A DNA stretch of 32,954 bases from Acidobacteriota bacterium. GTDB taxonomy: Bacteria; Acidobacteriota; Terriglobia; Bryobacterales; Bryobacteraceae. The first letter of the stretch is position 1, and every line of letters starts with the position of its first letter. Location: the NCBI GenBank assembly GCA_016871135.1, contig VFZQ01000003.1, forward strand, positions 1-32,954, in the 5' to 3' direction. A program made the position numbers and the translations under genes. Below, in pieces: positions 12,792-17,690 of the stretch. Below the pieces are notes generated by a model. That model was not told where the DNA came from and made no database searches. It saw nothing but the letters and a program-made list of their open reading frames with translations.

Positions 12792-13472
12792 CTATTCCCA
12801 GGGGCGATCCTTTAGAAACGCGATGTGCGTGGGAAGTGGTTTATCCGTCTTGAAGTGTTTCCGATAGGCCGCCACCCAATCAGTGGCGATATCGCGCTGG
12901 GCATCGGTGAGTCTCAATTTTCCGGAGCACACGAGGCCGCGCAGATGATCTTCTAGTGCGTCCTTGACGTTGGCTGTCCAGTATCCGCCGCGATAGGGTT
13001 GTGGCCACAGGTTGCGGATGTCGTCGGCGCCGCCGAGCGCTGGGCTGATTAGGTAATCGACCTCGTAGGCGCGCGGCGCGGGGCGGTCGATTCGATACTG
13101 CGCGAAGACTCGCCGGGCGAGCGATTCGGGAATTTCGGTTTCGCGTTCAACAACGCAAACCTGCTCGGCGGTCAGTGCGCTGGCGGCGCCGGGAGTCAGG
13201 CGTGCGTCGGGCAGATAAGCCGCGTGGACCGGCCGTTGCGGAACGAACAACAATCCGGCGACGGCGAGGACCGAAGCCGCGGCCGCCACGGCGTAGGGCC
13301 AACGGCGCCGGCGCACCGAATCCGAATACGCCGCGCTGGCATCGGCGAGCGCCTTTCGCCGCGCCGTGCAGACATCGCATTCGCCGAGATGAGCGCCCAC
13401 GTCCAAGGCGGTCTGCGCGTCCAACTCGCCGTCGATAAACATCACAAGAATGTCGTCATCAGGATGCTGCAT
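12792..13472 (-). CDS. Anti-sigma factor (zf-HC2 + TM) with a C-terminal HNH-like domain
   Basis: N-term [39 protein letters not shown] (HxxxCxxC), TM WPYAVAAAASVLAVAGLLFV, C-term LTPGAASALTAEQVC...YEVDYLISPALGGADDIRNLWPQPYRGGYWTANVKDALEDHLRGLVCSGKLRLTDAQRDIATDWVAAYRKHF. Overlaps the sigma gene by 14 nt. Confidence 0.82.
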   Translation of the reverse strand: MQHPDDDILVMFIDGELDAQTALDVGAHLGECDVCTARRKALADASAAYSDSVRRRRWPYAVAAAASVLAVAGLLFVPQRPVHAAYLPDARLTPGAASALTAEQVCVVERETEIPESLARRVFAQYRIDRPAPRAYEVDYLISPALGGADDIRNLWPQPYRGGYWTANVKDALEDHLRGLVCSGKLRLTDAQRDIATDWVAAYRKHFKTDKPLPTHIAFLKDRPWE

Positions 13473-13941
13473 GGCGGCTCAACTTGTCGAGAGATCGAGC
13501 GATCGACGCGGCGACCGAACCGAGCGAGATATCGAGGCGCTCGGCGATTTCGCGGTACCGAAGTCCCTGAGCCCGAAGCGCCAGACAGCAGCGATCCCGC
13601 TCGGGCAGAGCGTCGATGACCGCGCGAATTCGTTTCCGCCGCGCCTTCGCCGCGACGATTTGTTCCGGATTCGGCGCCTGGCAAATCGATGACACCTCCG
13701 GAAGCGAGCGTTGCAGCCGCGTCCGCTGGCGCAGCCCCAGATTGTGGCCGACACGAAATACCCAGCCCGCCAGATTGTCGCGCGGCTTGCCGGCCCGTAG
13801 ATGGTCGCCGAGCGCGAGAAAAACGTCCTGTCCCACGTCTTCGGCTTCGGCGGCTGGCAGGCCGAGCTTTGCCAAATAACGCAGCAGCGGCGCGCGCAAC
13901 TCCGCGTACAACTCGGTCCATGTGAGGACGCTCTCGGCCAT
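13459..13941 (-). CDS. RNA polymerase ECF sigma factor
   Basis: [44 protein letters not shown]...[20 protein letters not shown]...[46 protein letters not shown]: region 2 and region 4 signatures. Start at M31 of the track ORF. Confidence 0.9.
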
Positions 13942-13947
13942 CAATCC

Positions 13948-13953
13948 ATTATT
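13948..13953 (-). promoter_or_regulatory. -10-like AATAAT, 6 nt before ECF sigma ATG
   Basis: CTGAAC-N17-AATAAT-ggattg-ATG (minus strand). Confidence 0.5.
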
Positions 13954-13980
13954 CCTGAACAACGGACGCCGTTCAGGAAT
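13951..13980. promoter_or_regulatory. Perfect 10-bp-arm palindrome between divergent sigma and TonB receptor genes
   Basis: ATTCCTGAAC-AACGGACGCC-GTTCAGGAAT, arms perfectly inverted. Confidence 0.75.
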
Positions 13981-13983
13981 ATT
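13978..13983 (+). promoter_or_regulatory. -10-like AATATT, 6 nt before TonB receptor ATG
   Basis: CTGAAC-N17-AATATT-cgtctt-ATG (plus strand). Confidence 0.5.
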
Positions 13984-13989
13984 CGTCTT

Positions 13990-16626
13990 ATGGGATTGTT
14001 GTTGGCGGTGGCGCTCAGCGTGTTTGTGCAAGATCCATCGGGCGCAGGAATGAAGGCAAAAGGTGTGTTGGAGCCGGCGGGCGGCGGCGCGGTCACTCGG
14101 TTTGAAACGGCGGCCGACGGCGGTTTCGACGCCGGAGATATCAAGGCCGGCCGATACCGGTTGACCGTGTCGGCGGACGGTTTTACCGCGCCGGCGGTTG
14201 TGTTCGACATCGAAGAGGGCAAGCCGGCGCGGCAGGTCGTTAAGATGTTGGTCGGAACGGCCTCATACTCGGTCAACGTGGTCGCGGCGACGCCTCTGGG
14301 AGGATTGGATCGCGCCGTAGAGGAGATTCCTTCCCCAGTGCAAGGGGCAACCCATCGGGAAATCGGCTCCAGCGGCGCGCTGGATCTATCGGACTTCCTC
14401 AACCGGCGCATGAATGGTGTGTTCGTCAATGAGATTCAAGGCAACCCGTTTCAGGCCGACGTGAACTATCGCGGCTACACAGCGTCGCCCCTGGTAGGAA
14501 CACCGCAAGGCATTTCGGTCTTCCTGGATGGCGTCCGGCAAAACCAGCCGTTCGGCGACATCGTGAGTTGGGATCTGATTCCGCGGACTGCGATCGCCGA
14601 GACTGCTCTGATTGCCGGCTCCGATCCGGTATTCGGCTTGAACACGCTGGGCGGCGCGCTATCGATGCGCAGCAAGGACGGAACCGCGTTTCCGGGAACG
14701 GCGCTGCAGTTGGGTGGCGGGAGTTTCGGCCGCAAGACAGCCGATTTCGAACACGGCGGATCACGGCGGTCGATCGATTGGTTCCTGGCGAGCGGCATGT
14801 TCTTCGAAGAGGGCTGGCGGGACTATTCGCCGACCAACGTGCGCCAGTTTTTCGGGCGCCTCGGCTGGAGGCGCGATCGCACCTCGATCGGGCTCTCGAT
14901 CGGCTACGCAAACAACGCGCTGATCGGCAACGCGCTGCAGGAGCAGACTCTGCTTGCGCGCCGGTACGCGAGCGTCTACACGATTCCCGACATCACCGCC
15001 AACAAGGCACCGTGGCTCAACCTGCAACTACGCCACACCTTTTCGCCCCACGTCGCGTTGTCCGGAAACGCCTACTTCCGCTACGTGCGTTCCCGATTGT
15101 TCAACGGCGACTTGAATGACGACTCGCTCGATCAATCCCTCTACCAACCCAACGCCGCCGAGCGGGCTGCGCTAACCGCGGCCGGTTTCACGGGTTTTCC
15201 GGCGAGCGGTGAATCGGCGGCCAACACGCCGTTCCCGCGCTGGCGCTGTATCGCCAACGCCGTGCGTCGCGACGAACCCGGCGAAAAATGCAACGGCCTA
15301 CTGACCCGCAGCGCCTCGCAGCAGCGCAACTTTGGCGGGTCGGCGCAGGTGTCGTGGTTTGCGCGCCGGCACACGTTGACAGCCGGACTGGGTTACGACG
15401 GCAACAGCACCGGATTTACACAAATCGGCGAACTTGGCTATTTGACTTCCAATCGCGGGATCGCCGGCGTCGGCGCGTTCGGCGACGGTGTCACCGGCGG
15501 CGATATCGATGGCGAACCGTTCGACACACGCGTGAATCTACGCGGCAGGATTCACACGGGCAGCTTCTATGCCACCGATTCGGTGTCGCTCGGAAAGTCG
15601 GCGCGGGCGACGCTTTCCGGCCGCTACAACCGTACCGTTATCGACAACCTCGACCGCATCCGCCCGCGCGCCGGCACAGGCTCATTGACCGGGCATCACT
15701 CCTTTGGCCGGTTCAATCCGTCGGCGGGCTTCACGTGGAAAGGCGTGTACTTCAACTACGCCGAGGGAAGCCGGACGCCGACGTCGATCGAGCTCGGCTG
15801 CGCCGATCCCGAAGCGCCGTGTAAGCTGCCGAATGCGATGGCCGGCGATCCACCGCTGAAACAGGTTGTGTCGCGCACGCTGGAAGCGGGCGTCCGTGGC
15901 GGCGGCGAAGGCCCGCTGCGCTGGAGCGCGGGCTGGTTCCGAGGCGCCAATCGCGACGATATTCTTTTCGTCGCCTCCGAGCAAACAGGCTTCGGGTACT
16001 TCAAGAACTTCGGCCGGACGCTGCGCCAGGGCGCCGAGTTTGACGCCAGCGCGCGCCTCGGCCGCGCGCTGCTCGGCGCAAGCTACACCTACCTCCGCGC
16101 AACGTTCGAGAGCGAGGAGGAAGTCAACGGCGAAGGCAACAGCACCAATGCAAAAGGACCCGGCTTCGAAGGTCTGATCCACATCGAGCCTGGCAACCGG
16201 ATCCCTCTCACCCCCTCCCACATCACGAAGGCCTACGCCGATATCACCGTCACTTCGAAGTTCACCGTCAGCCCGTCGGTGATCGGCATCGGCGGCGCCT
16301 TCGCGCGTGGGAACGAGAACAACCGGCATCGAGCCGATGGCCGTTATTATCTTGGTCCGGGCCGTTCGCCGGGCTACGGCGTCGCGAACCTTGCCGCGCG
16401 CTACGTATTCAGCAAAACGTTCGAGCTCTACCTCAACGTCAACAACCTGTTCGACCGCAAATACTACAGCGCCGCGCAGCTAGGGCCGGTTGGGTTCAAC
16501 GCCGACGGCAACTTCGTCGCGAGGCCGTTTCCCGCCGTCAACGGCGAGTACCCGCTGCGCAATTCAACATTCTTCGCCCCAGGCGCCCCGAGAGGCGCCT
16601 GGGCCGGACTCCGGGTTCGATTCTAA
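13990..16626 (+). CDS. TonB-dependent receptor with N-terminal carboxypeptidase-regulatory-like domain
   Basis: [31 protein letters not shown]...[13 protein letters not shown], plug-like [60 protein letters not shown]-terminal [18 protein letters not shown]...GLRVRF. Start corrected to 13990. Confidence 0.92.
16578..16603. other. Perfect 10-bp inverted repeat inside the TonB-receptor 3' end
   Basis: CCCAGGCGCC-CCGAGA-GGCGCCTGGG, 20 nt downstream of the converging minus-strand gene's stop. No T-tract. Confidence 0.5.
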
Positions 16627-17690
16627 GGCCGGAAGCCGATTAGAATCGCGATAATCGTGTTGCTGGTGCCGTCGGTGATACTGCTAATCAGGCTGCTCGC
16701 CGACGTTGTCGTTCCGGTCGTTGACGAGATCTGACCGCCGGTCACGGTACCTGCCAGCCGCTGCGTGTTTGACACGCCGAAGCCGAAGCCATTGCCGCCG
16801 TTGAATCCACAGTTCAGACCGACACAATTCGACCCGCCGCTACAGCCAATGGTGTTGAAACCGAATGAGGCACAACCGAATCCACCGAAGCCGAATTCGG
16901 GCTGCGGAGAAGTCGACGCGTATTTTCTCCATTCGTTGCCGTTCACGTGTGCGAACGTGCTGACTCTCAGGCCGGCCGGCAACGCGCGCCGCGTGGGAAG
17001 AATGAACGAGATGCCGGCGCCGCTGGGCGCGTTCTCCTGCGGACTAATCGAGATCTGATATTGTGCGCACCACCAGGTGTCTTCCGCGTCGGCAGGGAGG
17101 TCGGCGTTGACGACGCGCCGGCGATCAAATGTCATCGTCGTCTGCGTTCGCACCGCACCCTCGCGGACGAATAGGATCACGCCGGTCTTGCCGACCGCCA
17201 CTGGTCCATTCTTGCCCGCCGCGTCGATCGTTCCGCGCTGATCGAAAATTACGCTACCGCTCTCTTCGAGCGGGATCAGCGGCCGGTTGGACCCGTTGTA
17301 GCTGATCAGCCCTTTCTCCGGTGTCTGAAAACTTACTGCCGCCGGTTGTTCGACCACCAGCGGCGCCGCGCCGTCGGGCTTTACGCGAAACGTGAAGGGC
17401 CCTACCAAACGATCCTCGCCGATCTCGGGAAAAGACCAAACGGCGACGTTGTCGCGAACGCCCTCGAAGACGGCGCCCGCGGGCGCGTCGACGGCCTCGA
17501 TGAAACGAGCGCCAAGCGGTACGGTTGAGCCGACCGCCACGCCTCCGATTTTCGCGTTCTTGGTGGCGACGTAGGCGCTATATAGGACAGAACCATCGGC
17601 ATCGTAAATGCCGAGGCTACGAACGAGGGCGAGCCCATCGTCTTGAGCAAACATAGAAAGGCTAAGAATAAGCAGTGTTGCGATCTTCAT
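16623..17690 (-). CDS. Secreted hypothetical protein with Gly/Phe/Cys-rich segment and C-terminal '[10 protein letters not shown]' motif
   Basis: Signal [75 protein letters not shown] end. CATCAT box 6 nt before ATG. Confidence 0.7.

Follow-up and report, generated by a model that had tools for sequence, protein, structure and literature searches.

The window, the whole stretch of 32,954 nucleotides analysed here, contains two divergent genes whose start codons, at 13941 on the reverse strand and 13990 on the forward strand, lie 48 bp apart. The rightward gene encodes a TonB-dependent receptor and the leftward gene an ECF sigma factor with sigma2 and sigma4 regions only (Sigma70_r2 at residues 11–78 and r4_2 at 103–154 of 160). 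The sigma factor gene is overlapped by 14 bp by the gene for a probable anti-sigma factor, whose zf-HC2 match scores barely above the cut-off.

13990–16626, forward strand: TonB-dependent receptor, 878 residues, with CarboxypepD_reg, plug and beta-barrel domains (Pfam); predicted leaderless, with its ATG 8 nt after the −10 element
13459–13941, reverse strand: ECF sigma factor, 160 residues, with Sigma70_r2 and r4_2 (Pfam) and TIGR02937; ATG 8 nt after the −10 element
12792–13472, reverse strand: probable anti-sigma factor, 226 residues, with an N-terminal zf-HC2, one predicted membrane helix (about residues 58–76) and a C-terminal domain

We note that the C-terminal part of the anti-sigma factor (EVDYLISPALGGADDIRNLWPQPY...), which has no reported Pfam match, is similar to sequence encoded immediately ahead of the receptor at locus L026. 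A 355-residue predicted secreted protein with a glycine/phenylalanine-rich tail is encoded convergently to the receptor (16623–17690, reverse strand); it gave no match in Pfam or NCBIfam.

The gap between the start codons holds a palindrome. Positions 13950–13981 read TATTCCTGAAC-N10-GTTCAGGAATA (with the spacer, TATTCCTGAAC-AACGGACGCC-GTTCAGGAATA), the perfect 11 bp arms occupying 13950–13960 and 13971–13981. A sequence-only reading of the window had described ATTCCTGAAC-N10-GTTCAGGAAT at 13951–13980, which is confirmed to the base; its 10 bp arms are each one pair shorter than those given here. Beyond the arms, weaker symmetry reaches both ATGG starts (23 nt arms, 78%). With 0–3 mismatches allowed, the palindrome occurs at a single place in the 6.46 Mb genome. 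A search at up to three mismatches found none in 100 shuffles of the window, and single-strand DNA folding is better than that of shuffles (z = −4.4). Taken together, the shuffles, the single genomic site and the folding score argue that the palindrome is not a product of chance.

The folding score would also fit a hairpin, whether a terminator, an attenuator or another RNA element. We regard this as very improbable, since the repeat would lie outside both mRNAs if transcription starts at the start codons, and relatives have not kept the inverted repeat. A terminator or known RNA was rejected, there being no terminator-like site and no Rfam match.

Comparison with relatives provided a different description of the site. 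Orthologous receptors were located in Bryobacteraceae and other Acidobacteria (placed from named records), and orthologues of the ECF sigma factor in 33 of 101 genomes. The motif TGAAC-N15-GGAATA, with at least 10 of 11 bases matched, is present upstream of 31 of the 51 acidobacterial orthologous receptor loci at a spacing of 15, whereas each other spacing from 10 to 20 gave 0–1 loci and shuffles gave 0.08 loci; the loci are related, and among them are the window, its sister and a duplicate, so that these counts do not represent independent cases. The profile built from 28 promoters consists of an A-tract followed by TGAACA(A/G)A, N12 and GGAATAT, in which T, G, A, A and C of the −35 element are invariant. 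The unit is thus better described from the relatives as TGAAC-N15-GGAATA(T)-N7/8-start codon, and the whole genome contains two exact matches to it, both within this palindrome. The sequence-only reading had proposed CTGAAC-N17-AATAWT at 13955–13983 (forward) and 13976–13948 (reverse), ahead of ATG codons at 13990 and 13941 with 48 bp between them. These coordinates are all correct; its −35 and −10 hexamers are where it placed them, but are 1–2 bp off the conserved elements.

An unbiased search for TGAAC-N15-GGAATA-N7-RTG (ATG or GTG) across 237 family genomes returned 27 matches, against none for the reversed control pattern in the same genomes. Twenty of the matches stand at the start of a homologous receptor, which in one case is only a distant relative, and the remaining seven lead into short frames of at most 51 residues. 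Locus L187 (G153:C200:17858-17893) shows this leaderless-type promoter ahead of a second, distantly related TonB receptor (about 25% identity); its genome also contains the main receptor and is the only one of the 237 with two exact matches. At three loci (L014, L015 and L024) the ECF gene is not divergent but follows the receptor in the same orientation; the first two of these retain the receptor promoter. Receptor homologues from Betaproteobacteria and other distant sources (L130 onward) essentially lack the motif, 1 of 42 reaching at least 10/11. The homologues L130–L170 (50–57% identity), from Janthinobacterium, Zoogloea and other Proteobacteria, are without it; most of them align only from about residue 90 on, which leaves out the CarboxypepD_reg part.

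When the conserved unit is placed on the window, the palindrome resolves into two opposed copies of it, as follows.

13950–13981, no strand: 32 bp palindrome with perfect 11 bp arms around N10, read here as two interlocked copies of one promoter
13956–13960, forward strand: putative −35 element (TGAAC) of the receptor promoter, invariant in the 28 listed orthologous receptor promoters, with a peak at spacing 15
13976–13982, forward strand: putative −10 element (GGAATAT) of the receptor promoter, from the motif scan and the 28-promoter profile
13971–13975, reverse strand: putative −35 element (TGAAC) of the sigma factor promoter, the same motif on the opposite strand, with ECF-side copies in other species
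13950–13955, reverse strand: putative −10 element (GGAATA) of the sigma factor promoter, abutting the receptor −35; exact motif match, with ECF-side copies elsewhere

The −10 element of each promoter abuts the −35 element of the other and no element base is held in common. One promoter consists of a −10 element (6 bp), a spacer (15 bp) and a −35 element (5 bp); placing the rightward −35 directly after the leftward −10 makes each arm a single 11 bp block of −10 plus −35. The arms are exactly this block and contain no further sequence. On geometric grounds, a rightward copy that shares no element base can interlock only with its −35 placed within the leftward spacer, and the placement seen here is the tightest of these. 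Both −35 elements contain the AAC typical of ECF promoters,PMC8103513 and both −10 elements are GGAATA, without CGT; the AAC (−35) and CGT (−10) hallmarks have since been relaxed.PMC8103513 No sigma-70-type promoter was found in the 48 bp gap. Against the profile of 28 promoters the core scores are 26.6 bits on the receptor side and 16.5 bits on the ECF side, the latter lower than any of the receptor copies scored (17.9–29.9 bits). The A-rich extension after TGAAC is absent from the ECF-side copy, and a strong upstream A-tract was seen in neither direction in the window. The low ECF-side score, these two absences and a −10 other than the classical CGT of ECF promoters count against reading the palindrome as two ECF promoters.

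On the ECF-facing strand, the motif was found in 11 loci at spacing 15 and in none at other spacings (a set that includes the window, its sister and the duplicate). Leaving aside the window and its sister, a pair of copies (at least 9/11) was seen at 11 loci. In every case the pair is back-to-back, and 10 to 75 bp lie between the 5′ bases of its −35 elements. That both genes have their own copy in these 11 loci supports co-regulation of the sigma factor and the receptor. One of the 11, L047, belongs to another family within the same order and faces a different receptor-like protein; upstream of its ECF gene the divergent copies flank a palindromic A-tract pair (CTCTTTTTCGCCGCGCGGCGAAAAAGA), a shared upstream element. 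Measured in the same way, the −35 to −35 distance is −19, i.e. interlocked, only in the window and its sister. The exact palindrome is likewise confined, among the 237 family genomes, to the window's genome (G000) and this 98%-identical sister (G013), a MAG labelled K_DeepCast_65m_m2_251, with five further matches at 3 mismatches. It follows that there is no independent second case of interlocking. Eight species of a sister clade, near which the receptor tree places the window pair with moderate support (80–87), have the same 48 bp gap and the receptor copy, and their ECF side matches 3–5 of 11 bases in the interlocked register. Autoregulation is therefore not universal. In these comparisons it is the promoter that is conserved, the palindrome itself being peculiar to a single pair of species. 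The sequence-only reading had tied its case to conservation of the palindrome in orthologous loci; the palindrome fails in this respect and its two promoters do not.

These observations bear directly on whether the palindrome is instead an operator through which a homodimeric regulator represses or activates the two genes together, its likeness to promoters being secondary. Perfect two-fold symmetry, half-sites about two helical turns apart and the lack of an extended −35 in the left-facing copy would all suit such an operator. We nevertheless consider it distinctly unlikely. The arms are accounted for by −10 and −35 consensus alone, relatives retain the receptor promoter with the symmetric partner absent or elsewhere, the palindrome has the single genomic site described above, and no regulator gene other than those for the sigma and anti-sigma factors is found among the immediate neighbours (sigma, anti-sigma, receptor). 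The comparison with relatives thus explains the palindrome without a dimeric regulator. The proposal in the sequence-only reading that one bound dimer controls both genes is not supported, the arms having no extra sequence and the palindrome being absent from relatives that keep the promoter. As the main reading the operator was accordingly rejected, the palindrome being unconserved and the promoter conserved.

A second alternative accepts the receptor promoter as a true ECF promoter but takes the leftward match to be weak or inactive, the sigma operon depending on a different sigma factor or on a start elsewhere; the sister clade may have the same arrangement. The sister clade, which at the same 48 bp spacing has no ECF-side copy, and the score of the window's leftward copy, the lowest of all, both favor it. 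On the other hand, the leftward copy matches all 11 core bases at the sole correct spacing and is followed 8 nt later by an ATG, as on the right; such a match is very unlikely to arise by chance in a 48 bp gap. Further, ECF-side copies occur in 11 other loci, and the gap offers no sigma-70-type promoter in place of this one. On balance this alternative seems unlikely to us.

The position of the start codons is also informative. In all 36 motif-bearing loci an in-frame receptor start follows the −10 element, at 7 nt in 26, 8 nt in five, 9 nt in three and 13 nt in two. Both start codons in the window are 8 nt after their −10 elements, which leaves no room for a Shine-Dalgarno region and lies within the distance of about 7–12 nt expected between −10 box and start codon in leaderless genes. 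Transcription starting 7–8 nt past the −10 element would fall on the start codon, so leaderless mRNAs are predicted. Both window mRNAs thus probably begin at or next to the ATG, a feature absent from the sequence-only reading. In some relatives the ECF-side copies are followed by a longer leader with a Shine-Dalgarno-like GGAGG, and leaderless starts are therefore not general on the ECF side. Leaderless genes have been predicted in all three Acidobacteria genomes surveyed, at 13.3% of genes on average.PMC3160421 The window resembles these in having a −10-like signal at a fixed short distance ahead of the start codon; it differs in that the survey used sigma-70-like TANNNT boxes, whereas the box here belongs to an ECF-type promoter.

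We therefore favor, as a probable reading of the comparative evidence, that the palindrome is two opposed, interlocked TGAAC-N15-GGAATA promoters serving an autoregulated module of ECF sigma factor, anti-sigma factor and TonB receptor with leaderless mRNAs. Judging from the neighbourhood and the type of −35 element,PMC8103513 the adjoining ECF sigma factor is most likely the one that reads both promoters. The membrane anti-sigma factor would hold the left-encoded sigma factor inactive until an envelope signal frees it. RNA polymerase with the freed sigma factor would then bind the palindrome in either of two orientations, the rightward giving receptor mRNA and the leftward giving sigma/anti-sigma mRNA and hence positive feedback; positive autoregulation is usual for ECF operons.PMC8103513 Since the same DNA is needed in both orientations and the polymerase footprints would overlap, only one polymerase should occupy the palindrome at a time, making the orientations mutually exclusive. 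The difference in core scores suggests that the rightward output would be the stronger. With two promoter copies packed as tightly as separate copies allow, a single short element could activate the pair of genes. The sequence-only reading had proposed a divergent ECF promoter pair, a sigma factor reading the element both ways and autoregulation. All three are supported by the single spacing of the motif at receptor orthologues and by the second copy that faces the ECF gene in several other species.

A large regulon was considered and rejected: the exact genome scan gave the palindrome site alone, and among the 28 sites with one mismatch that were examined, not one looks like a leaderless promoter of a clear gene, their start-codon context being unconvincing. 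These results suggest that the regulon may be this locus alone. At its simplest, the module might be a minimal two-way switch in which a sigma factor acts on a single 32 bp site, with two complete ECF promoters packed to the geometric limit and one polymerase at a time choosing between feedback and receptor; both mRNAs would be leaderless, and base differences between the half-promoters, not a regulator, would set the ratio of receptor to sigma factor. We put the chances of this simplest form at about even.

A conserved promoter motif is now available for a group of ECF sigma factors in Acidobacteria, and leaderless receptor mRNAs are predicted across a bacterial family. The locus also provides a very small natural test case of whether two directions can share one sigma factor site. 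It urges caution as well: perfect symmetry between two divergent genes does not always mark an operator, and here it is the appearance that two interlocked promoters take.

In FecI/FecR/FecA-type regulation, an ECF sigma factor and an anti-sigma factor control a neighbouring TonB-dependent receptor. The present locus shares this control of an adjoining receptor, but its anti-sigma factor is of the zf-HC2 type and not FecR-like, and its receptor has CarboxypepD_reg, the FecA-type signalling domain having been judged by Pfam scan alone. FecI-like ECFs are, moreover, usually not autoregulated.PMC8103513 Another likeness is to autoregulated ECF/zf-HC2 anti-sigma modules with a divergent target, which have in common with the window an ECF gene overlapping a membrane anti-sigma gene, a −35 element of the AAC type and one motif ahead of both sigma operon and target.PMC8103513 The window differs from them in that the promoters for both directions occupy the same 32 bp, the −10 element is GGAATA as opposed to CGT and the start codons are 8 nt after the −10. 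Among the papers searched, we found no match for overlapping ECF promoters with leaderless starts and no promoter study of this acidobacterial ECF group. Warman et al. (2021) reportedly described bidirectional bacterial promoters that arise from symmetry of the −10 sequence, one −10 region being read on both strands. There, as here, one short symmetric site would support transcription both ways; in the window, a −35 and a −10 of its own serve each direction, and the two sets have no base in common. A single symmetric −10 used on both strands does not describe the window, which has separate −10 elements at 13950–13955 and 13976–13981. The locus combines known principles in an unusual arrangement, one that is real and well supported at the level of sequence.
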